Below are positions 9,204 through 38,819 of a DNA stretch of 64,000 nt, one piece after another (position 1 is the first letter of the stretch; every line of letters begins with the position of its first letter). The position numbers were made by a program, and so were the translations under genes. Source of the stretch: Leuconostoc holzapfelii. Lineage in GTDB: Bacteria; Bacillota; Bacilli; Lactobacillales; Lactobacillaceae. A model generated the notes under the pieces. It was not told where the DNA came from. It saw nothing but the letters and a program-made list of their open reading frames with translations, and ran no database searches. The stretch is from assembly GCF_012396485.1 (NCBI RefSeq), contig NZ_JAAXPO010000003.1, forward strand, positions 62,001 to 126,000. Direction: 5' to 3'.

Positions 9204-9221
9204 AAGTTTTATATTAAAAAA

Positions 9222-9462
9222 CGTTGAGCGGAAGAGTAGACTGACATGATTTTAAGGGAGTTTGCGGGTAGTGCGAGCAAATAGTCGTGTGGGTTGAAAC
9301 ACATCTGCGAGTGTATGATTGAATTCAGTAGGTCATATCGGTTTTGCCCGTTATCGCAAACAGTCTTTTGACTTATTGAGGCATGGCCAGTGATGGCTTT
9401 GCGATAAGAGGTGGCACCGCGGATAACGCCCTCTGGATACATTGTATTCAGAGGGCGTTTTT
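9222..9462 (+). promoter_or_regulatory. T-box riboswitch, complete
   Basis: tRNA-sensing leader with all parts. Stem I: lower stem GCGGA/TCTGC, AGTA S-turn near 9235, AGGGAG bulge (9255-9260), apical T-loop region TTTGC...GCAAA (9261-9281), TTGAA next to the specifier loop around 9294-9303. The T-box core GGTGGCACCGCG (9410-9421) forms the antiterminator (AGAGG/CCTCT) and competes with the terminator CCCTCTG/CAGAGGG plus T-run (9429-9462). The specifier cannot be fixed by eye: ACA (9299-9301), CAC (9300-9302) and AAC (9298-9300) are in the loop. The bulge TGGC pairs best with tRNAs whose discriminator is G, such as Asn, Asp, Ser, Gln or Trp, which would favour AAC (Asn). Confidence 0.93.
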
Positions 9463-18727: not shown

Positions 18728-19417
18728 ATGACAAAAATTTTAGTAGTGGATGATGAGGCAGCAATTTCAACGTTATTGAAGTATAACTTGGAAGAGAATA
18801 ATTATGAAGTGATTGTTGCAGAAGATGGGCAAACGGCTTATCAATTAGCGAGTCAGCAGAATTTTGATGCTATTTTGTTAGATCTCATGTTACCTGGCAT
18901 GGACGGGATGACCGTTTTAAAAACCTTGCGACAAGATAAAATCAGTACGCCAGTGATCCTCGTGACGGCAAAAGGGGATGAATTTGATCGGGTGTTTGGT
19001 TTAGAGCTTGGGGCCGATGATTATATCACAAAACCATTTAGCCCACGCGAAGTCGTGGCGCGTTTAAAAGCGGTCTTGCGTCGATCACAAGTGGATCATC
19101 AAGTTTCTGAAGAAGCTGATGTGATTAAAATTCAAAATTTGGTCATTGATGATAACAAGAAAGTCGTCACAAAAGATGATAAGATTTTGACTTTGACACC
19201 GAGAGAATATGAACTGTTATTGTATTTTGCCCAACGCATTGGGCGCGTGATTGATCGCGAGACGATTTTGACGGCGGTGTGGGGTTATGAATTTACCGGT
19301 GAAAGCCGCATGGTGGACATGCATATTAGTAATTTACGCGAAAAAATTGAAGTGAATCCTAAGTCACCAATGTTATTAAAAACGGTGCGAGGCTTTGGCT
19401 ACACGATGGTCGTGTAG
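18728..19417 (+). CDS. phoP: Phosphate response regulator PhoP
   Basis: OmpR/PhoB-class response regulator of 229 residues. The receiver domain has the acidic pair DD at 9-10, the phospho-acceptor Asp in LLDLMLPG (about 53) and the Lys in TKPF (about 102); a winged-helix DNA-binding domain follows, with the LTPREYELL and REKIEVNPKSP stretches. Its Pho role is inferred from the pst genes and the kinase gene downstream. Unusually, phoR is not next to it: a pstS gene with its own control signals comes first. Confidence 0.93.
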   Translation: MTKILVVDDEAAISTLLKYNLEENNYEVIVAEDGQTAYQLASQQNFDAILLDLMLPGMDGMTVLKTLRQDKISTPVILVTAKGDEFDRVFGLELGADDYITKPFSPREVVARLKAVLRRSQVDHQVSEEADVIKIQNLVIDDNKKVVTKDDKILTLTPREYELLLYFAQRIGRVIDRETILTAVWGYEFTGESRMVDMHISNLREKIEVNPKSPMLLKTVRGFGYTMVV

Positions 19418-19432
19418 CTTTGTAAAGGCGGA

Positions 19433-19448
19433 TTTACAATGATTTACA
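19433..19448 (+). promoter_or_regulatory. Probable PhoP-binding repeat upstream of pstS1
   Basis: Two TTTACA units begin 10 bases apart. The second is part of ATTTACATAAC, which occurs again upstream of pstS2 (21974-21984). Bacillus PhoP binds TTHACA repeats. Confidence 0.65.
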
Positions 19449-19595
19449 TAACGATGACAAGTTTATGTCGCATTCTTTGACACAGCGCCAGTAGTATATA
19501 ACTTGTAAACAAGGACTGGCACCCAAGAGCCACTACTACAACCGAGTTTACACTACATACGCTTCAATGAAGCCTTAGACAAGGGAGAATTACTC

Positions 19596-20510
19596 ATGAA
19601 CAAAACAGTTGTCGGTGTTATCGGCGGTGTTGTCGTTATCGCAGCAGGTGTTGCATTGTATGCCAATTCAAATAAGAGCACAACGAAGCAAGACACGCAA
19701 AAAGCAGCCTCATCTTCTTCTAACTTGAGTGGAAAAGTACTTGCTTTAGGTTCAACTGCCTTGCAGCCATTGGCTGAACAAGTGGCAACCTCATTCCAAC
19801 AAAAGAATCCTGGTGTGACAGTGACCGTTCAAGGTGGTGGTTCAGGCGCCGGTTTGAGTCAAGTTGCGAGCGGCTCTGCACAAATTGGTAACTCGGATGT
19901 TTTTGCTGAAGAAAAGTCAGGTGTTGATGCCTCTAAGTTGCAAGACCACAAGGTGGCCGTTGTTGGTATCGCGCCAGTTGTTAACTCAGATGTTCAAGTA
20001 TCAAACTTGTCAAAGACACAATTACGAGACATCTTTACTGGTAAGATTACAAACTGGAAGGATGTTGGCGGTAAGGACGAAAAGATTGTGGTCATTAACC
20101 GTGCCACAGGTTCAGGTACACGTGCTGTCTTTGAAAAGAATGTCTTAGACGGTCAAAATGCGGTGCAAGCAACTGAACAAGATTCAAACGGTACAGTCCA
20201 AAAGATTGTGTCAACCACACCAGGGGCGATTTCATATCTTGCCTTTGCTTACCTAGATGCTTCAGGCATCAAGGCCTTAAATGTTGATAAGGTGACACCT
20301 GATACCAAGAACGTTGAAGATAACGCATGGCCAATCTGGGCATACGAACACATGTATACCAAGGGTGATGCAACTGGTGCCACAAAGGCCTTCTTGGATT
20401 ACTTTACAACAAAGGATGTCCAAAAGACATTGGTACCAAAGCTTGGATATATCGGGTTGACTGACATGAAGGTGACACGCGATGCATCAGGCAAGGTAAC
20501 AAAGAACTAA
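19596..20510 (+). CDS. pstS1: Phosphate ABC transporter substrate-binding protein PstS (first copy)
   Basis: Periplasmic-type phosphate receptor of 304 residues. After one hydrophobic segment (about 5-25) come the phosphate-binding stretches GSTALQPL, GGGSGAGLSQV, IGNSDVFAEE and NRATGSGTRAVFE, which provide the Ser/Thr/Asp/Arg ligands. There is no Cys in the signal region, so no lipidation; it is probably membrane-anchored. GGGAG precedes the ATG. It has its own Pho box and terminator and lies between phoP and phoR, apart from the main pst operon. Confidence 0.95.
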   Translation: MNKTVVGVIGGVVVIAAGVALYANSNKSTTKQDTQKAASSSSNLSGKVLALGSTALQPLAEQVATSFQQKNPGVTVTVQGGGSGAGLSQVASGSAQIGNSDVFAEEKSGVDASKLQDHKVAVVGIAPVVNSDVQVSNLSKTQLRDIFTGKITNWKDVGGKDEKIVVINRATGSGTRAVFEKNVLDGQNAVQATEQDSNGTVQKIVSTTPGAISYLAFAYLDASGIKALNVDKVTPDTKNVEDNAWPIWAYEHMYTKGDATGATKAFLDYFTTKDVQKTLVPKLGYIGLTDMKVTRDASGKVTKN

Positions 20511-20525
20511 TTTAAGTCATTTTTC

Positions 20526-20550
20526 AAAGTCCGCGACCGCGGGCTTTTTT
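20526..20550 (+). terminator. Terminator after pstS1
   Basis: AAAGTCCGCG pairs with CGCGGGCTTT (one G-U pair), then a T-run. A TATGAT -10 for phoR follows at about 20553. Confidence 0.88.
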
Positions 20551-20578
20551 GTTATGATAGAGATATTGGAGTAAGGTG

Positions 20579-21934
20579 ATGACAAAAAAAGTATTTAAAT
20601 ATCTATCATTTTGGTTGGTAATTTTTTTATTTAGCGGCGTTTTGAGTAGCTTATTGCGGTTTACCTTGAAGCAATGGCTGCTCATGATTGGTGTGATGAG
20701 TCTGGCCACTTTTGGGGTAGTTTGGGTAGCAAATTTTTGGGAAAGTCGGCAAAAGCAGGAGTTGAAAGCCATGGAAAATCGCATGGTTTCGACCGTTGCT
20801 GGTGGTGTTCCCCGTGGGGTTTTGGCAGAACCGGATTCGCCATATTATGATTTAATTCGTCAGTTTAACGACATGCAAAACTTTGTCCAACAAGCTCAAC
20901 AAACAGCACAACGCGATGTGACAAATTATCGGTCATTGTTGGCCAGTTTGCCTGTTGGTGTGATCAATATTAATCGTGCGCACACGATTGATGTTTTTAA
21001 TGAGACCGCAGCGGCATTATTAGGGATTCAGCGGCCAGAAACACCAATATCTGAAGGGCTCGTGATTCGCCAGTTTACGTTGTCCGAATTGATTACGCAA
21101 ACGTTTAATTCTCAAAAAAACCAGCAATCAATCTTAAATTTGCAAATTAATGGCGAGATGAAACAATATGAGGTCAGCACCCTTTATCATCAAGGAGACC
21201 TTAAGCACGCCGAGGTGATGATTATTATTTATGATTTGACGTCTGTCTTGCAAGTTGAGCGCATGCAGTCAGATTTTTTGGCGAACGCCTCGCATGAACT
21301 CAAAACGCCACTGACAGCCATCACTGGGTTTATTGAGACGTTGCAAGGTCAAGCTGGCGAAGATCGCGCAACCCGCGAAATGTTTTTAGACATTGTGGCA
21401 CAAGAGGCCAAGCGGCTCTCGTCGCTCGTCAATGATATTTTGTCATTGTCACGTGTGCAACAAAAGCGCGAAGCCGTGCATACTGAATTGGCGATTCATG
21501 ACATGGTCACTGAGCAATGGCAGCACGTCATGCCGCTTGCTACCACAAAATCAGTCACTTTAAGAAATGACGTTGCCGATGATTTTATGATTCGGGGACT
21601 AAAAACGGATGTGGATATGATTTTGCAAAACTTGATTGGCAATGCCGTAAAGTATAACGTTTTTGGCGGTGATATTCATGTGACAGCTTACAAAGACCAT
21701 CAACATTGGCAACTAAACGTCAAAGATACAGGGATTGGGATTCCGACTAACCAACAAACACGGATTTTTGAACGTTTTTACCGAGGAGATGAGTCACGAC
21801 AACGCAAAATTGCGAGTGGCACTGGGCTAGGATTGGCGATTGTCAATGAAATTGTGAACAAACACAACGGTGAAATTAAGGTTCAATCCCAAGTCGCAGT
21901 AGGCACAACGGTTAGCGTGACCTTGCCTTTGTAA
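20579..21934 (+). CDS. phoR: Phosphate sensor histidine kinase PhoR
   Basis: 451-residue membrane kinase. Two membrane segments with almost no extracellular loop (about 8-28 and 34-50), then a linker, a PAS domain (about 110-220), the HisKA dimerisation helix with the phospho-acceptor in NASHELKTPLTA (about 240) and the HATPase domain with N-box NLIGNAVKY, DTGIGIP and GTGLGLAI. ATG 20579 is preferred over GTG 20576 because GGAG is seven bases before it. The tiny extracellular part fits a kinase that reads the Pst transporter through PhoU instead of binding phosphate itself. Confidence 0.93.
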   Translation: MTKKVFKYLSFWLVIFLFSGVLSSLLRFTLKQWLLMIGVMSLATFGVVWVANFWESRQKQELKAMENRMVSTVAGGVPRGVLAEPDSPYYDLIRQFNDMQNFVQQAQQTAQRDVTNYRSLLASLPVGVININRAHTIDVFNETAAALLGIQRPETPISEGLVIRQFTLSELITQTFNSQKNQQSILNLQINGEMKQYEVSTLYHQGDLKHAEVMIIIYDLTSVLQVERMQSDFLANASHELKTPLTAITGFIETLQGQAGEDRATREMFLDIVAQEAKRLSSLVNDILSLSRVQQKREAVHTELAIHDMVTEQWQHVMPLATTKSVTLRNDVADDFMIRGLKTDVDMILQNLIGNAVKYNVFGGDIHVTAYKDHQHWQLNVKDTGIGIPTNQQTRIFERFYRGDESRQRKIASGTGLGLAIVNEIVNKHNGEIKVQSQVAVGTTVSVTLPL

Positions 21935-21952
21935 ATAAATCTTGACACAATC

Positions 21953-21995
21953 TTTACATTCGGCCGCAACGACATTTACATAACTTTAAGATAAT
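21953..21995 (+). promoter_or_regulatory. Probable PhoP box and promoter of pstS2
   Basis: TTTACA at 21953-21958 and at 21975-21980 are 22 bases apart, two helical turns; the second lies in ATTTACATAAC as upstream of pstS1. GATAAT at 21990-21995 can be the -10. Confidence 0.65.
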
Positions 21996-22038
21996 AGGAG
22001 AGTAGTAGTAATGTAGTTAAATCTTGGGAGGCATGAAT

Positions 22039-22920
22039 ATGTCGAAATCACATCGCGGGACGATTGTGTCAACAATTGTCATCGTGGGTCTTATTGCGGC
22101 CATTGGGTCGGGTTACGTGATGCGTGATAAAAGCGCATCAGGCACATCGATTACAGCTGTGGGGTCAACGGCGCTGCAACCGTTCGTCGAAGCGGCCGGT
22201 GAAGAATATACCAAAGCGAACTTGGGCACATTTGTTAACGTCCAAGGGGGCGGCACTGGGACTGGTCTCAGTCAAGTTGCCCAAGGCGCCGTTGACTTAG
22301 GCAATTCAGATGTCTTTGCAGAAGAAAAGCCAGGCATCGATGCAAAGAAACTGGTGGACCATCAAGTCGCAGTTGTCGGCATTGCCCCCTTATTGAATAA
22401 AGAAAATGGGGTGACGCAGTTAACCACACAGCAATTGCGCGATATTTTCACCGGTAAGGTCACCAATTGGCGTCAAATTGGCGGTAAAAATCACAAAGTC
22501 GTGATCATTAACCGTGCAGCTGGGTCAGGGACCCGTGCCACATTTGAAAAGTTCGGGTTGCTAGGCGATAAAAGTATCTCGGCACAAGAACAAGATTCAT
22601 CTGGTATGGTCCGGTCCATTGTTGCCACAACCCCTGGTGCCATATCATATGCGGCCTTTGGTTACATCAACGATACCGTTGTGGCACCAGCAATAGATGG
22701 CGTGAAACCTACCAATGCCAACGTCATGACTGGCCAATACCCTATTTGGTCTTATGAACATGTCTACACGAATGGCCAACCAACCAAACGGGTGGCCAAA
22801 TTCTTGGCATATTTAACCTCAAAAAAGATTCAAAAAACTTTAGTGCCTAAACTAGGCTATATCTCAATTCATGACATGCAAGTCACGCGTCAAGTGAGTG
22901 GCCAAATTACTCAAAAATAA
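22039..22920 (+). CDS. pstS2: Phosphate ABC transporter substrate-binding protein PstS (second copy)
   Basis: 293-residue paralogue of pstS1 with the same phosphate-binding stretches (GSTALQPF, GGGTGTGLSQV, LGNSDVFAEE, NRAAGSGTRATFE). One N-terminal hydrophobic segment and again no lipobox Cys. I start at ATG 22039, seven bases after GGGAGG; two upstream in-frame starts are too close to or overlap that site. It opens the pstS2-C-A-B1-B2-phoU operon. Compared with pstS1 it is more basic near the C-terminus; different affinity is possible but not shown. Confidence 0.94.
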   Translation: MSKSHRGTIVSTIVIVGLIAAIGSGYVMRDKSASGTSITAVGSTALQPFVEAAGEEYTKANLGTFVNVQGGGTGTGLSQVAQGAVDLGNSDVFAEEKPGIDAKKLVDHQVAVVGIAPLLNKENGVTQLTTQQLRDIFTGKVTNWRQIGGKNHKVVIINRAAGSGTRATFEKFGLLGDKSISAQEQDSSGMVRSIVATTPGAISYAAFGYINDTVVAPAIDGVKPTNANVMTGQYPIWSYEHVYTNGQPTKRVAKFLAYLTSKKIQKTLVPKLGYISIHDMQVTRQVSGQITQK

Positions 22921-22999
22921 CACGACCTTACCTATCACGTGTGTGATCGTGAGGCCAATCATCACAATCAGAACAGTATTTGAAATGCAGTAGGTCGTG
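22921..22999 (+). repeat. Long-range stem in the pstS2-pstC gap
   Basis: CACGACCTTAC right after the pstS2 stop pairs, with one bulged T, with GTAGGTCGTG (22990-22999). There is no T-run, so it is more likely an RNA stabiliser or attenuating structure that keeps pstS mRNA higher than pstC than a terminator. Confidence 0.5.
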
Positions 23000-23031
23000 G
23001 TCATACCACAGTTACATGCTTTGGAGATAAA

Positions 23032-23955
23032 ATGGATAACATTACACAGAAGTTGATGCAAAAGTCAGAGTCAACGAAAAAAGATGCCATGGGTCGGGCG
23101 ATTAGTTTGTCAGCCTTAGCCCTGATTGTCATTGTTGTGATTTCAATTTTTGCTTTCGTTATGAGCCGTGGACTCGCAACGTTTTTCCACGATGGGGTCA
23201 GTGTCAAAGATTTCCTTTTTGGCACAACTTGGAACCCATCAGTTGTTGACCCACACACTAAGCAGCCATACATTGGGGCCTTACCAATGATTGTTGGGTC
23301 ATTCTTGGTGACCTTCTTAGCAGCGATTGTGGCCACACCTTTTGCTATTGGTACGTCATTATTTATGACGGAAATTGCCCAAAAGCGTGGGACCAAAATC
23401 ATGCAGCCGGTGATTGAATTATTGGTGGGTATTCCCTCAGTTGTTTACGGATTTATTGGTTTGACGGTTGTCGTACCATTTATCCGGTCAGTATTTGGCG
23501 GTTCCGGTTTCGGCATTTTGTCTGGCACAATTGTTTTGTTCGTCATGATTTTGCCAACAATTACGTCGATGACGGTGGATACGTTAAAGTCAGTGCCACG
23601 CCATTATCGGGAATCAGCGTTAGCTATTGGGGCAACCCGTTGGCAAATGATTTACAAAGTTATCTTACGTGCGGCCACACCTGGCATTTTGACTGCGATT
23701 GTTTTCGGTATGGCCCGTGCCTTCGGTGAAGCTTTGGCAGTGCAAATGGTGATTGGTAATGCGGCGTTAATGCCACAAAACTTGATTTCACCTTCATCAA
23801 CTCTGACGTCAGTTTTGACCATGGGAATTGGTAACACGGTGATGGGATCACTTCAAAATGATGTCTTGTGGACTTTGGCGATGATTCTCTTGCTGATGTC
23901 GCTCGTCTTTAACTTGATTGTACGTGCAATCGGACGTAGAGGAGAATTGAAATAA
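23032..23955 (+). CDS. pstC: Phosphate ABC transporter permease PstC
   Basis: Membrane subunit of 307 residues with six hydrophobic segments: one at about 20-45 before an extracellular loop, then five in the transport domain, including the EAA loop at about 195-215 (ESALAIGATRWQM). The stretch GIPSVVYGFIGL is typical of Pst permeases. TTGGAG precedes the ATG. Its TAA overlaps the pstA ATG by one base. Confidence 0.96.
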   Translation: MDNITQKLMQKSESTKKDAMGRAISLSALALIVIVVISIFAFVMSRGLATFFHDGVSVKDFLFGTTWNPSVVDPHTKQPYIGALPMIVGSFLVTFLAAIVATPFAIGTSLFMTEIAQKRGTKIMQPVIELLVGIPSVVYGFIGLTVVVPFIRSVFGGSGFGILSGTIVLFVMILPTITSMTVDTLKSVPRHYRESALAIGATRWQMIYKVILRAATPGILTAIVFGMARAFGEALAVQMVIGNAALMPQNLISPSSTLTSVLTMGIGNTVMGSLQNDVLWTLAMILLLMSLVFNLIVRAIGRRGELK

Positions 23956-24839
23956 TGAATGCGAAAACTGCTGATAAGCTTGCCACAGGGATCATTTATA
24001 CCATTTCTGGCATTGTTGCCTTGATTTTGGTGGCAATGCTCTCGTTTATTTTAGTTCGTGGTGTGCCACATTTGTCATGGCATTTCTTGACGTCACCGGC
24101 CAAGGCGTTTGAAGCTGGTGGTGGGATTGGCATCCAGTTATTTAATTCTTTCTATTTGCTGTTGTTGACGATGTTAATTAGTTTTCCCATCGCGCTGGCA
24201 GCGGCAATTTATTTAAATGAATATGCGCGCAAAGGACGTTTTACAACGATTGTGCGGACAGCCATTGAAATTTTAAGTTCCTTACCTTCCGTGGTTGTTG
24301 GCTTGTTTGGTTTCTTGTTGTTCGTGGTGAAGTTCCATTTTGGTTTTTCAATTTTATCAGGGGCCATCGCTTTGACCTTTTTCAACCTCCCTTTATTGAC
24401 ACGTTCAATTGAAACAAGTTTGGCACAAATTCCCAACTTACAACGTGAAGCGGGATCAGCGTTAGGTTTGTCCCGTTGGGAAACAGTGATCCATGTTATT
24501 TTGCCAGCAGCCGTCCCATCAATCGTGACGGGGGTTGTTTTGTCTGCGGGTCGTGTATTTGGTGAAGCGGCCGCATTGATTTATACAGCAGGGCAATCAG
24601 CGCCAGCCTTAAACTTTGGTGATTGGAATCCCTTTAACATTTCAAGTCCCTTAAACCCCATGCGTCCAGCTGAAACATTAGCGGTGCATATTTGGAAGAT
24701 TAACTCAGAAGGGATTATGCCCGACGTTAGTGCGGTGTCTGCGGGGGCTTCAGCTGTGCTGATCATTGTTGTCTTGCTATTTAACGTCAGTGCGCGCAAG
24801 TTGGGTGCGATGTTACACAAGAAGCTGACAAGTGCCTAA
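23955..24839 (+). CDS. pstA: Phosphate ABC transporter permease PstA
   Basis: 294-residue partner of PstC with the same membrane pattern (first segment about 15-38, five more in the transport domain) and the EAA-like loop EAGSALGLSRWETV near 172. The LSSLPSVVVGLFGFLLFV stretch corresponds to the PstC one. Coupled to pstC (TAATG). An 80-base gap separates it from pstB1. Confidence 0.96.
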   Translation: MNAKTADKLATGIIYTISGIVALILVAMLSFILVRGVPHLSWHFLTSPAKAFEAGGGIGIQLFNSFYLLLLTMLISFPIALAAAIYLNEYARKGRFTTIVRTAIEILSSLPSVVVGLFGFLLFVVKFHFGFSILSGAIALTFFNLPLLTRSIETSLAQIPNLQREAGSALGLSRWETVIHVILPAAVPSIVTGVVLSAGRVFGEAAALIYTAGQSAPALNFGDWNPFNISSPLNPMRPAETLAVHIWKINSEGIMPDVSAVSAGASAVLIIVVLLFNVSARKLGAMLHKKLTSA

Positions 24840-24919
24840 TGTTAAATGATAAATGCGCGTTGCCTCACAGACAACGACGATGAACTAGAAAACCTGCTCA
24901 CAGGCTTTATGGAGAAAAA

Positions 24920-25759
24920 ATGGCAAATACGATTGATTTAAAACCAGTCAGTGAATTTATTTCTGAAGATGCACCAGCGCGTTATGTTTATGACATGTCA
25001 CCAGAAAAGCATGAAATTGCGCTTTCAACGCATGACTTACAAGTTTACTATGGCGATAATCTGGCGTTGAGTGAAGGTGACTTAGCCTTTGAACGTTATA
25101 AAATTACGAGTTTAATTGGGGCTTCAGGTTCTGGTAAATCGACTTTCTTACGGTCTTTAAACCGGATGAATGATGGCGTGGCGACCGTTAAGGGCAACAT
25201 TACCTATCGCGGTGTTGATATTAATACGAAAGCGATTGATGTCTATGAAATGCGTCGGCATATCGGGATGGTGTTCCAACGACCCAACCCGTTTGCAAAA
25301 TCAATTTATAACAACATTACTTTTGCGTTGACACAACGCGGTGTCACGGACAAACAGGAATTAGATGAAATTGTCGAAACAAGTTTGCGCCAAGCTGCCT
25401 TGTGGGATGAAGTGAAAGATGAGTTAAATAAGTCGGCCTTAGCTTTGTCTGGTGGCCAAGCACAACGTTTGGTTATTGCCCGTGCTTTGGCACTCAAACC
25501 AGATATTTTGCTCCTTGACGAACCATCTAGTGCACTTGATCCGATTTCTTCAGCACAAGTTGAAGATACGTTGCTCGAATTAAAGAATCAATACACCATC
25601 ATTATCGTGACCCACAATATGCAACAAGCGGCGCGTATTAGTGACTATACGGCATTCTTCCACATGGGGAAGGTGATTGAATATGATTTGACACGTAAAA
25701 TTTTCACACGACCAAAAGTTGCACTTACAAATGATTATATTTCGGGGAACTTCGGATGA
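24920..25759 (+). CDS. pstB1: Phosphate ABC transporter ATPase PstB (first copy)
   Basis: 279-residue ATPase with Walker [10 protein letters not shown] (about 72-80), Q-loop MVFQRPNPF, signature LSGGQAQR and Walker [14 protein letters not shown]. The signature has Ala where most PstB have Gln (LSGGQQQR). About 35 extra N-terminal residues precede the usual PstB start. GGAG lies before the ATG. The next gene is a second pstB overlapping by four bases; paired pstB genes are common in lactic acid bacteria. Confidence 0.95.
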
Positions 25760-26526
25760 CAGAGCGGACACAAAAAAATATTCTTGAAACGCGTGATGTG
25801 AAATTATGGTATGGCCAAAAGGAAGCGTTGCATGGGATTAATCTGACTTTTCCTGAAAAAGGCATTACGGCGTTAATTGGCCCCTCAGGTTCTGGTAAAT
25901 CAACGTACTTGCGGGCTTTAAACCGGATGCATGACTTGGAAGATAATATTACCGTGACGGGTACGTTTGACTTCAACGGGACGGATATTTATGCACCCAC
26001 GACGGACACCGTTGATTTACGAAAGCGCATCGGGATGGTGTTCCAACAACCGAACCCTTTCCCATTTTCGATTTATGAAAACGTCATTTTTGGCTTGCGC
26101 TTAGCTGGGGTTAAGGATAAAAACGTCCTAGATGAAGCTGTTGAAAAAGCATTACGTCAGGCTTCGGTGTGGGATGAAGTGAAGGATGATTTGCATAAGT
26201 CTGCCCTCGGTTTGTCGGGTGGTCAGCAACAGCGTGTGTCGATTGCCCGCGTTTTGGCCACGTCGCCGGATCTGCTTTTATTAGATGAGCCAACGTCGGC
26301 CTTGGATCCTGTGTCAAGTCATAATATTGAAGAAACACTGTTGAATTTAAGAAACGATTATGCGATGATTATTGTTACCCATTCGATGTCTCAAGCATCA
26401 CGGCTATCAGATCGCACAGCCTTTTTTCTTAGCGGTAATTTGATTGAAGTAGATGCTACCAAGAACATTTTCTTAAACCCCCAGCGGCAAGAGACGCAGG
26501 ATTATGTTAGTGGCCGTTTTGGCTAA
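25756..26526 (+). CDS. pstB2: Phosphate ABC transporter ATPase PstB (second copy)
   Basis: 256-residue ATPase of standard length with Walker [19 protein letters not shown], signature LSGGQQQR and Walker [14 protein letters not shown]. Overlaps pstB1 by four bases (ATGA). With pstB1 it could form a heterodimer, or each could make its own homodimer with PstCA. Confidence 0.96.
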
Positions 26527-26544
26527 GCAAAAAGGAGAAACAAC

Positions 26545-27219
26545 ATGCGACGTTTATTTGATGAAGAATTAGCAGATCTAGATAATTCATTTACAGAAAT
26601 GGGCATGCTCGTTGCCCAAACCATTCAAAAATCAGTACAATCATTTGTCGATCATGATCGTGAAGGGGCAAAGGCCATTTTGGAAAACGATCATAAGATT
26701 AATGAGCGCGAAGCCGCCATTGAAAAGAAGACGTTTGAAATGATCGCTTTGTACCAACCCGTGACCACTGATTTACGAGAAATTGTCACCATTTTAAAGG
26801 CGGTTTCTGTGCTTGAACGCATGGGGGATCAAGCACGTAACATTGCCAACTCAACCATTCGTGTGAAGGGCACCAAGCATATTGCCAGTGTCGAAAAGGA
26901 ATTAGGCGAAATTGGGGAACAAGTTGCTGCGATGGTTTCACGGGTGATGGATTACTATGTGAAATATGATGCCTTAGGCGCTGAATCGATTGCCGAAGAA
27001 AACCAATCGTGGTCAAACCGTGCGGCTAAAGTGCGTTCAGACTCTGTTAAGGGGATGAAGGACGATGCTGAATTAGTCGATTCTGCCGCTGATTATTTAG
27101 TGATTGCGGGTTATTTGAAGCGGATTGGCGATTACACCATTGATATTGCTGAATGGATTGTCTATAAGCGCACAGGAAAGATTATCGAATTAAACCCTGG
27201 TTATAACTATTTCATCTAA
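26545..27219 (+). CDS. phoU: Phosphate signalling protein PhoU
   Basis: 224-residue cytoplasmic all-helical protein made of two PhoU repeats (about 8-100 and 115-210). The metal-binding-type motifs LERMGDQARNIAN (about 92-104) and LKRIGDYTIDIAEW (about 191-204) are clear. It links the state of the Pst transporter to PhoR. Preceded by AAAGGAG; last gene of the operon, followed by a terminator. Confidence 0.97.
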   Translation: MRRLFDEELADLDNSFTEMGMLVAQTIQKSVQSFVDHDREGAKAILENDHKINEREAAIEKKTFEMIALYQPVTTDLREIVTILKAVSVLERMGDQARNIANSTIRVKGTKHIASVEKELGEIGEQVAAMVSRVMDYYVKYDALGAESIAEENQSWSNRAAKVRSDSVKGMKDDAELVDSAADYLVIAGYLKRIGDYTIDIAEWIVYKRTGKIIELNPGYNYFI

Positions 27220-37006: not shown

Positions 37007-37366
37007 ATGCGTCAAAACAGTATTTTAGAAAACATTACATCAGCACAATTGCGTTCTGATATCCCTGACTTCCGCGCTGGTGACACTGTTAAGGTGTTCG
37101 CTAAGATCGTCGAAGGTTCACGTGAACGTATCCAATTGTTTGAAGGCGTTGTCATCAAGCGTAAGGGTACTGGTATTCAAGCAACATATACAGTACGTAA
37201 GATCTCATCTGGTGTTGGTGTGGAACGTACATTCCCATTGCACTCACCACGTGTAGACAAGATTGAAGTTGTACGCTTCGGTGCCGTTCGTCGTGCCAAG
37301 TTGTACTACCTACGTGCATTGCAAGGCAAGGCTGCACGTATCAAGGAACGTCGTCGCGACGTATAA
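37007..37366 (+). CDS. rplS: 50S ribosomal protein L19
   Basis: 119 residues, normal length. The family sequence is unmistakable: [49 protein letters not shown] and the C-terminal [21 protein letters not shown]19 sits at the subunit interface. GGAGAA before the ATG; followed by a terminator, so it is transcribed alone. Its usual neighbour trmD and the S16 gene (rpsP, 58055) are elsewhere. Confidence 0.98.
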
Positions 37367-37377
37367 GCCGATTAAAG

Positions 37378-37399
37378 ACACCAGTAGGTGTTTTTTTTT
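37378..37399 (+). terminator. Terminator after rplS
   Basis: ACACC-AGT-AGGTGT with nine T. Confidence 0.88.
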
Positions 37400-37531
37400 G
37401 TGGTCAAAAAGCCGATTTGGTGGGACATTTGTGCCGAGGAGACATGGGAAAATAACATGAGATATGTAGCTGTCATCTAGGTGTAATATAATAGCAAAAG
37501 TTGTGATATATCAAAAAATCTCATGAAGGTA

Positions 37532-37537
37532 TATAAT
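37532..37537 (+). promoter_or_regulatory. -10 element of the small RNA
   Basis: TATAAT; a start 7-9 bases later coincides with the first hairpin of the RNA. Another TATAAT at 37487-37492 could drive a longer form. Neither has a good -35. Confidence 0.6.
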
Positions 37538-37543
37538 TAAAAC

Positions 37544-37676
37544 ATACTCAAAGATATTTGAGTTTCATTACTCCCCTAGTAATGTTTCAATCAGCCCCCC
37601 CAATTACTGATTGATAAATCGATAACTTCGGTTATCACCCCCTGACCATTGCCCTCTTCGGTCAGGGGCTTTTTTT
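37544..37676 (+). ncRNA. Candidate small regulatory RNA with C-rich loops
   Basis: About 130 bases without an open frame, made of five successive perfect hairpins: ACTCAAA/TTTGAGT (37546-37563), CATTACT/AGTAATG with loop CCCCT, TCAATCAG/CTGATTGA with seven C in the loop, GATAAC-TTCG-GTTATC, and CCCCTGACC/GGTCAGGGG with GCCCTC in the loop, followed by seven T as terminator. Single-stranded C-runs in loops are the hallmark of Gram-positive sRNAs that pair with G-rich ribosome sites (LhrC, RsaE and csRNA types). It lies between rplS and dinB with its own -10. I do not recognise it as a named RNA. Confidence 0.82.
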
Positions 37677-37733
37677 ATGACGTGATGTTATGGCACACGA
37701 ACCAATGTTCGCTGGATGTGATAAAATAGTGGT

Positions 37734-38819
37734 ATGACAGAGTTTTTATTGACAACTGATACACGAAAAATTCTCCATGTTGATATTGACGCCTTTTATG
37801 CGCAAGTTGAGATGCGTGATAATCCAGCATTACGGCAACAGCCATTGATCATTTCTCGTGATCCTGCGGAAACTGGTGGGCGTGGGGTGGTTACGACAGC
37901 CAACTATGTCGCGCGGCAACTGGGAGTCCATTCGGCTATGCGTTCAGCAGAAGCTCGTCGATTAGCCCCAAACGGTATTTTTATCACGCCTAATTTTGAA
38001 AAATATAAAGCCATTTCGAAACAAATTCATGATATTTTTCGACGTGTCACACCAAAAATTGAACCTGTCGCCTTTGATGAAGCTTACTTAGATGTATCAG
38101 ATGCGCAACAGACTGGCGCGATGCTGGCGGCGCAACTCCGGCATGAAATCTACCGCCAAACGCGGTTGACAAGTTCGGTTGGGGTGTCACACAATAAGCT
38201 TCTCGCCAAGCTTGGTTCTGAGTTCAATAAACCTAATGGGGTCACCGTGATTACCCCGGAAAACATGCTTGCTTTTTTAGACAAGTTACCGATTAGGGCA
38301 TTTCGCGGCGTTGGAGAGAAAACCTATGAGAAAATGCTTGCGCTGGACATCCACGATGGGGCGACCCTCAGAACTGTGCCACGTGAGACTTTAGTGGCAC
38401 AATTTGGTAAGATGGGGGAACACCTTTATTGGCAGGCACGTGGGGTGCATTTTGGCGAAGTCAAATGGCAGCGCCAACAGCAATCGGTTGGGAAAGAAGA
38501 AACGTTTGCCGTGTTTTTGCATCACGACGCCGCGGTACACGCGGAATTTAAAAAATTGGCCATAGGGATGATCACGGCCTTAAAAAACCGCCAGCTTGTC
38601 GGCCGCACGTTAAATATTAAGATTCGTGATGACACCTTTCATACTACCACGCGGGCGATTACCCAAGCAGCACCTTGGGAACTTTCAGAGGAGCGCATTG
38701 TCAATGCAGCGCAAACAATTTTTGACGAGGTGGTGACCGCACCCTATGCGATTCGGTTGTTGGGCTTATCGATGAGTAATTTACAATCCAGTGGTTTTGA
38801 AGAAATGACCTTGTTTTAA
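37734..38819 (+). CDS. dinB: DNA polymerase IV (Y-family)
   Basis: Error-prone translesion polymerase of 361 residues. Palm motifs ILHVDIDAFYAQVE at the N-terminus and the catalytic pair in PVAFDEAYLDVS (about 101-112); SVGVSHNKLLAKLGSEFNKPNG (about 150) contacts the incoming base. The C-terminal little-finger domain is complete and ends in a short tail (EEMTLF) resembling a clamp-binding motif. I see no LexA box in front. The start at 37734 has only a weak ribosome site. Confidence 0.95.
   Translation: MTEFLLTTDTRKILHVDIDAFYAQVEMRDNPALRQQPLIISRDPAETGGRGVVTTANYVARQLGVHSAMRSAEARRLAPNGIFITPNFEKYKAISKQIHDIFRRVTPKIEPVAFDEAYLDVSDAQQTGAMLAAQLRHEIYRQTRLTSSVGVSHNKLLAKLGSEFNKPNGVTVITPENMLAFLDKLPIRAFRGVGEKTYEKMLALDIHDGATLRTVPRETLVAQFGKMGEHLYWQARGVHFGEVKWQRQQQSVGKEETFAVFLHHDAAVHAEFKKLAIGMITALKNRQLVGRTLNIKIRDDTFHTTTRAITQAAPWELSEERIVNAAQTIFDEVVTAPYAIRLLGLSMSNLQSSGFEEMTLF

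Follow-up and report, generated by a model that had tools for sequence, protein, structure and literature searches.

A predicted C-rich small RNA gene of Leuconostoc, a candidate member of a probably two-component-controlled family in lactic acid bacteria and enterococci

Between rplS and dinB of Leuconostoc holzapfelii lies what looks like a free-standing small regulatory RNA gene, positions 37543-37676 of the 64-kb stretch of DNA analysed here (the window, to whose positions all coordinates refer; L-, G- and g-numbers denote loci, genomes and genera respectively). The gene and its conservation are well supported. The RNA appears to represent, in Leuconostoc, an old family that lactic acid bacteria share with enterococci and that is for the most part uncatalogued, and we give a probability of about 0.7 to the reading that it is an OmpR-type-controlled small RNA of a Lactobacillaceae/Enterococcaceae family that masks ribosome sites with C-rich loops. 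Within this reading, computation supports the gene, its fold, its conservation with compensating changes, and the conservation of the loops and of the promoter repeat, whereas we infer which regulator acts, under what stress the gene is induced and that target mRNAs are repressed at their ribosome sites. An earlier note on this DNA had pointed to the locus; the present analysis adds a direct repeat (37471-37487) and shows how widely the element is conserved.

The element lies on the + strand, as do all features given below, within the 367-nt gap between rplS (37007-37366) and dinB (37734-38819). A terminator-like hairpin behind rplS (37374-37395) separates that gene from the small RNA gene. 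A gap-free alignment of the 75 nt preceding the start, covering all 20 Leuconostoc and g8 sequences, brought out a direct repeat, TGTCAT-N5-TGTAAT, at 37471-37487; this repeat has a period of 11 bp and is a response-regulator-type box. Weaker third and fourth half-sites, AGCAAA and TGATAT, are visible by eye in the same alignment and the same 11-bp phase (37493-37509). A -10 box, as reported in the earlier note, is present; the box in use is most likely TATAAT at 37532-37537 and not the TATAAT-like string near 37487, judging from the alignment, because the conserved block begins 5 nt downstream and this spacing is kept across the 20 loci. Four of its six columns are invariant in 11 representative rows. 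The start of the ∼134-nt RNA is predicted from this box. On the + strand of the gap no consensus -35/-10 pair was listed, the two promoter-like sites both being on the - strand; together with the separate terminator-like hairpin of rplS, this fits an activated promoter.

The predicted RNA folds into five stable hairpins. H1 (37546-37563; fold and inverted repeats) is A/U-rich. H2 (37566-37584), the core hairpin of the family, presents the loop CCCCT (37573-37577) on a stem that is invariant in 19 of 19 aligned rows, and H3 (37587-37614; fold and alignment) presents CCCCCCCAATTA (37595-37606). H4 (37621-37636) has a UUCG-type loop and is free in sequence with its pairing kept, as seen in the alignment and in a hairpin count, whereas H5 (37639-37676) is a 9-bp intrinsic terminator, with a stem-loop at 37639-37668 and the loop ATTGCCCTCTTC (37648-37659), followed by CTTTTTTT. 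The three C-rich loops, those of H2, H3 and H5, are therefore as first described; the count of five hairpins plus a terminator has to be amended, since the fifth hairpin is itself the terminator and there are five in all. The fold of 37487-37700 reaches -55.6 kcal/mol, compared with a mean of -36.7 kcal/mol (sd 4.1) for shuffled sequences (z -4.6), and none of 200 shuffles folded as low. With this fold 4.6 sd below the shuffles and with conservation that includes compensating stem changes, the small-RNA-gene look of the locus is borne out.

A DNA search recovered the element in all 19 Leuconostoc genomes, at one copy per genome, and in genome G025 of another genus; no Leuconostoc copy was found on plasmids or in phages. 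In an alignment of 19 sequences (A2, from which L005 was left out as identical to L004), the H2 stem is invariant and the H3 stem nearly so, while H4 and H5 vary with their pairing kept. Two-sided changes occur in 6 of 36 pairs of A2, against 2.1 in shuffled alignments, and the compensating changes in H4 are supported by their own hairpin count.

Since the element sits between rplS and dinB on their strand, it could in principle act as a dinB leader or attenuator, or form the 3′ end of an rplS transcript. We regard this as very improbable. Besides the terminator-like hairpin that rplS has of its own, the element closes with a terminator 57 nt before dinB, and its neighbours change: when 1.5 kb to each side of 20 loci was surveyed, 13 had it between rplS and dinB, four (L015-L018) had it beside rplS but lacked dinB, and three (L012, L014 and L019) had neither gene. 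Conversely, both genes persist without it. No element was detected between rplS and dinB in two Convivina loci, one further relative and 10 of 11 Fructobacillus loci, where the two genes are 56 to ∼103 nt apart, stop codon included. In g18, discussed below, the element follows htrA in 26 of 28 loci. Collectively, the changing neighbours and the element-free rplS-dinB gaps argue for an independent gene. Two named Leuconostoc dinB loci (L035 and L037) had neither rplS nor the element in the stretch fetched, and the closest named DinB is that of L. lactis (84%). We also considered a small protein, as 10 sequences examined included five (L001, L009, L012, L015 and L020) with a ten-codon frame, M(F/L/H)QS(A/V)PPI(T/V)D, in H2/H3. 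In L002, L011 and L019, however, the reading frame is altered after the C-run, no such frame closes inside the RNA in L004 and L013, and no ribosome site precedes it; a small protein was therefore rejected and the frame judged a by-product of the conserved RNA.

To look beyond the genus, we searched 397 Lactobacillaceae genomes with a covariance model built from the Leuconostoc and G025 sequences (R1). At E ≤ 0.01 it matched 27 genomes, namely the 19 Leuconostoc, G025 and seven of genus g18, which we guess to be Weissella; seven further matches (E 0.013-0.9) were taken as chance. Applied to g18 as a whole, R1 gave a match in 28 of 28 genomes at E ≤ 1, and on reading the sequences all 28 loci carry the core hairpin. 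HtrA is encoded just upstream in 26 of them and was not seen for L229 and L236. Two second matches in g18 (L237 and L238) looked like chance when read, and no g18 copy was found on plasmids. In this genus the stems of H3, H4 and H5 are largely rewritten yet still pair, and the loops CUCCCC, UUCCCCAA and CCCCCUCUU are kept in most copies; the C-rich loop of H3 is missing from L215, L217 and L232, and L232 has no C-run in H2 either.

The rewriting of the g18 stems allowed covariation to be measured. Of the 24 g18 sequences that are distinct (L228-L231 duplicate L227), alignment A5 comprises 17 (L215, L217, L218, L219, L232, L235 and L236, divergent or oddly ended, were left out). Two-sided changes were found in 27 of 50 pairs, against 16.4 in shuffles and 8-14 in slid structures, the structure for this count being taken from folds of the same sequences. 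Likewise, the covariation score was 0.360 compared with 0.203 in shuffles (0 of 500 as high) and 0.08-0.14 in slid controls. Further pair types did not exceed shuffles, 78 of 500 being as high for A5 and 159 of 500 for A2. Because the stems came out misaligned in A4, a joint MAFFT alignment of Leuconostoc with g18, it did not enter the counts. The check for conserved stems with compensating changes suggested in the earlier note was hence positive in A5, in A2 and in the H4 hairpin count.

A second model (R2) was built from g18 sequences only, with E-values from a short calibration that makes them rough. At E ≤ 0.05 its matches covered 95 of the 397 genomes and 12 of the 40 genera; taking the rough E-values at face value, chance would account for ∼20 genomes. 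The 95 comprise 17 of the 19 Leuconostoc (E 5e-9 to 5e-6), G025, 23 of g18 and 54 in nine further Lactobacillaceae genera; the best values were 6e-10 in g19 and 5e-5 in g16. We chose 21 loci from 20 genomes, covering all nine further genera, and on reading each of the 21 carries a core hairpin of the H2 type with ACTyCC; most of them further have another hairpin with a C-loop, then a pyrimidine linker and a terminator. In many lactobacillar copies there is an additional single-stranded linker, TACTC(C)TTT, which is complementary to the consensus ribosome site. Latilactobacillus curvatus has a clear copy.

Lactobacillar cores were then used for a third model (R3; its alignment, A6, holds 19 of 24 core stretches, some of them trimmed). 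At E ≤ 0.01, R3 matched 37 of 395 genomes of the order (∼4 by chance), including 15 outside Lactobacillaceae, Enterococcaceae among them, and it revealed tandem copies: G088 has four, spaced 195 nt apart, and G075 has three. The window copy was not found by R3 at E up to 1, and L019 was found only at E 0.55, so that the most distant members are tied to Leuconostoc indirectly, by way of R2. The chain of relatedness suggested by these sequence searches would run from Leuconostoc through g18 and the lactobacilli to the enterococci. The family is not confined to this lineage, in which the earlier note had tentatively placed it: homologues reach many Lactobacillaceae genera and Enterococcaceae.

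Could the Leuconostoc/g18 RNA and the lactobacillar/enterococcal RNAs be convergent instead of one family? Leuconostoc copies get low scores from R3 or none, C-rich small RNAs are many, and the promoter repeats of the two groups differ in strand. Nevertheless, we hold convergence to be quite unlikely, as R2 joins Leuconostoc, g8, g18, g19 (6e-10), g16 (best 5e-5) and others in one search, albeit with rough E-values, and as a core hairpin of the form CATT..ACTyCyC, a regulator-type repeat and a common order of parts all recur. We favour, with some reserve, one old small RNA family, controlled by two-component systems and common to lactic acid bacteria and enterococci, in which the core CATTnnACTyCyC hairpin was kept while further C-rich or ribosome-site-mimicking modules and the copy number were rebuilt genus by genus, and of which Ref84 (see below) would be the catalogued member. 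Copy number across the relatives ranges from one in Leuconostoc to four in tandem elsewhere, and copies also occur on plasmids.

Similar DNA is present on plasmids of Vagococcus fluvialis (L344), Enterococcus faecalis and E. faecium. A conjugative E. faecium plasmid (L345) shows two tandem copies by eye and received no score from R3 or Rfam; the plasmid search with an L332 copy also counted two Staphylococcus records, which we know by count alone. Near the copy in L344, on the other strand, is a match to SpF66_sRNA (43.8 bits; cut-off 42). Two unannotated fragments with enterococcal copies (L346 and L347) come from records named Enterococcus phage Efs 1-1-1; by eye L347 is near-identical to the E. 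faecalis plasmid DNA of L343, and these 'phage' fragments may be host DNA. Locus L303 of G167 is a second RNA-like stretch of that genome, a divergent one; it carries UUCCC loops and a TATACTCCTTTTGG linker and follows a TTCACA-N5-TTCACA repeat.

The repeat upstream of the RNA is itself conserved. The pattern YGTHAH-N5-YGTMAH occurs on the same strand in 19 of the 20 Leuconostoc/g8 promoters, compared with 0.12 in shuffles (by eye the L. palmae-like L020 lacks it), and in 4 of 27 g18 promoters. Among other Lactobacillaceae, KTHAYA-N5-TTHAYA was found in 31 of 45 distinct upstream regions against 0.3 expected, and in 21 of 28 measured distances it lies 9 nt before a -10-like string; it also occurs in 7 of 28 g18 upstream regions and 4 of 8 from other families, but in none of the 20 Leuconostoc promoters. 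Both patterns were drawn from the data, and for the Leuconostoc one the shuffles were scored with the same pattern. The Leuconostoc repeat differs from the lactobacillar one in orientation, which is opposite, and in place.

How specific are these repeats to the RNA? In ten lactobacillar genomes, exact TTCACA-N5-TTCACA gave 23 sites in seven genomes, 13 of them in G167, against three for the reversed control. Outside G167, 8 of 10 such sites precede a copy of the RNA (six by program, two by eye), and the sites exposed second RNA copies in several genomes. TGTAAY-N5-TGTAAT was not enriched across Leuconostoc, with 28 sites in 11 of 19 genomes and 33 for the reversed control, and a looser pattern gave 12 sites against 8 reversed in the holzapfelii genome itself. 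Two adjacent genes for LysM secreted proteins were seen in 17 Leuconostoc genomes (L170-L186); scored with the strict pattern, WalR-like repeats precede the first of the two genes in 6 of 17 (0.17 in shuffles) and lie inside that gene in 0 of 17. Single repeat sites before exopolysaccharide (EPS) and LysM genes only suggest a regulon.

Direct repeats of this spacing are typical of OmpR-family regulators, and the Eta system is the counterpart of LisRK. The holzapfelii genome encodes seven OmpR-type regulators, one of which is WalR (L105; 403.7 bits against the YycF cut-off of 340). According to the portion of a survey of 19 strains available to us, Cro and Yyc systems are present in all of them and Eta in all but Oenococcus oeni (PMC3040137). 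For lhrC5, the accessible text of PMC4132741 places a LisR-responsive stretch upstream of -53, where positions -55, -57 to -59, -72, -74 and -75 had an effect; if transcription starts at 37543, the Leuconostoc repeat spans about -72 to -56 and resembles that stretch. On account of the type of repeat, the presence of WalR, the distribution of Eta and the lhrC5-like position, we rank a LisR/EtaR-type regulator or WalR first as the most likely candidate.

Naming WalR in preference to a LisR/EtaR-type, CiaR-type or PhoP regulator would be tentative, and we think it somewhat less probable than that another of these is responsible. WalR has an orthologue here (L105), TGTAAT-N5-TGTAAT fits its consensus, and the same kind of repeat precedes a LysM secreted-protein gene in those 6 of 17 upstream regions. 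The lactobacillar TTCACA-N5-TTCACA, however, is a different string on the other strand, and Eta is nearly ubiquitous in the part of the survey cited above (PMC3040137); in addition, the LhrC study, in the sections accessible to us, has LisRK regulate this functional analogue (PMC4132741). Control by PhoP, considered because the pst genes lie ∼16 kb upstream, was not chosen, as the TTTACA-type repeats of the pstS1 promoter are oriented the other way. That region (18728-27219) contains phoP, pstS1, phoR, pstS2 and further genes that complete a pst-phoU-like cluster, most names being assigned by eye, with a pstS gene between phoP and phoR. The 5′ leader of pstS1 (19500-19560) is strongly conserved in the 13 Leuconostoc loci examined, and in most of them reads AACTTGTAAACAAGGA..GGCACCCAAGAGCC..CTACTACAACC..GTTTACA with complementary ends, possibly a structured leader.

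In the mechanism we propose, an OmpR-family two-component response regulator would bind the 11-bp-period repeat upstream of 37543-37676 and switch the small RNA gene on, probably under envelope stress. The C-rich loops of H2, H3 and H5 would then make first contact with the G-rich ribosome-binding sites of several mRNAs and subsequently block their translation. The target mechanism is drawn by analogy: C-rich motifs touching ribosome sites are the mode of LhrC, RsaE, RNAIII, SprD and FsrA in the available part of PMC4132741. Loop complementarity was scored at the 58 translation starts of the window, which had been placed with the help of ribosome sites, a procedure that favours a match. Matches of at least 6 nt to the H2 loop were found at four of 58 starts and at 0 of 58 in each of two controls. 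There was no clear excess for H3 (three starts; 0 and two in controls, 58 each) or for H5 (four starts; three and three in controls, 58 each), and shuffled loops did as well on average match in 28 of 200 (H2), 101 of 200 (H3) and 91 of 200 (H5) cases. Duplex energies of -12 kcal/mol or lower were reached by six of 58 starts and seven of 58 control stretches. As these tests stay near control level, ribosome-site masking is derived from the features of the family, and the multi-target repression put forward in the earlier note stays an analogy.

The strongest pairing seen, -16.7 kcal/mol with the H5 loop, involves the start region of an eps cpsB-like gene of the same genome (G000) outside the window; the best of the 58 window starts reaches -13.5 kcal/mol. 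In three other genomes the gene pairs more weakly and through another loop (G010, -8.9; G011, -12.8; G018, -12.8 kcal/mol). By eye it is the first gene of an apparent EPS operon (L071, ∼1490-1640, contig C12), with a TGTAAT-N5-TGTCAC repeat upstream. Its combination of repeat and strongest pairing makes it a lead as a target.

The weak or negative outcome of the complementarity tests would also fit an RNA that is real and conserved but uses its loops in another role, for example in titrating an RNA-binding protein, and in Leuconostoc neither arm of H2, nor most of either arm of H3, varies at all, which is more than loop contacts would need. We consider such a role unlikely, since in g18 the H3 stem was largely rewritten and the C-rich loop stays in most copies, and since the TACTC(C)TTT linker of many lactobacillar copies is complementary to the consensus ribosome site. 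Masking of ribosome sites hence remains our preferred reading.

In the literature, no base-pairing small RNA of Leuconostoc was found by title among the matches listed; one of these concerned 6S RNA in lactic acid bacteria. A full-text search found no paper on Ref84 with Enterococcus sRNA, the matches listed for the letters of the core hairpin were unrelated by title, and the accessible portions of PMC8186281, PMC13109727 and PMC3616900 held nothing bearing on the question. Two L. casei RNAs from small-RNA sequencing are said, in the part of PMC8220740 at hand, to resemble Enterococcus sRNA families, and earlier detection of single family members is therefore possible. If the family is real across the order, food and probiotic bacteria would gain a counterpart of LhrC and the csRNAs, two-component signalling would be tied to translation control in many lactic acid bacteria, and an isolated Enterococcus entry of Rfam would become part of a wide family.

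A cmscan search of the window and 32 relatives' loci with all 4227 Rfam families, another check that the earlier note had called for, placed no family over the element at its curated cut-off, LhrC and, for the window copy, RsaE included; elsewhere in the searched loci a T-box and a tRNA did reach theirs. A T-box leader (RF00230) occupies 9215-9436 of the window with 103.5 bits. The best sub-threshold match of the window copy, to TarA of Vibrio (RF02537; 27.2 bits, E 0.012, over 37585-37676), was taken as chance or convergence, the gathering score being 80, the phylum distant and only the C-run and terminator alike. Rli32 of Listeria (RF01468; gathering score 100) gave 29.6 bits (E 0.0081) on the lactobacillar L330 and no match for the window copy.

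A catalogued relative nevertheless seems to exist, although it scores below cut-off. Ref84 (Enterococcus sRNA 84, RF02846) is built like the relatives, with a leader, a UUUACUC..GAGUAAA hairpin, a CUCCUUUU linker and a terminator. It aligns over its full length to each of the four tandem copies of L332 (40.7 or 39.8 bits; E 0.0013-0.0018) and end to end to E. faecalis L343 (38.8 bits), which R3 finds weakly (E 0.0098). Its order of parts is seen in both loci, and L343 has the upstream repeat by eye. The relatives score 30.9-40.7 bits, all below the gathering score of 52, and the window copy gave no match to Ref84 up to E 10. Leuconostoc has five hairpins, three C-loops and a repeat of the other orientation, whereas the Ref84 model has two hairpins.

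In the streptococcal csRNAs the repeat keeps a fixed distance to the -10 box. As proposed here for the family, the csRNAs have a two-component repeat before the -10 box and complementarity to translation starts, and like some family members they occur several per genome, but the csRNA box reads NTTAAG-N5-TTTAAG and the motif [A/C]UCCUAAA[A/C] is present in most of them, as described in the part of PMC3091779 available. In the promoter alignment this CiaR box is absent before the -10 (only L020 has TTTAAG-N5-TTAAAG, not beside the -10), and the nonamer is absent from 37543-37676 by reading. The likeness in kind to LhrC and RsaE, which the earlier note had remarked on, holds, C-rich UCCC motifs being typical of both in the accessible text of PMC4132741. 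LhrC of Listeria, according to the same portion of that paper, further has UCCC loop motifs, a two-component drive such as we propose here and, like some lactobacillar and enterococcal members, multiple copies; the Leuconostoc element differs in being single copy, and against the three UCCC sites of LhrC, in loops and single strands, the window copy sets three C-rich loops, with a literal UCCC in H2 only.
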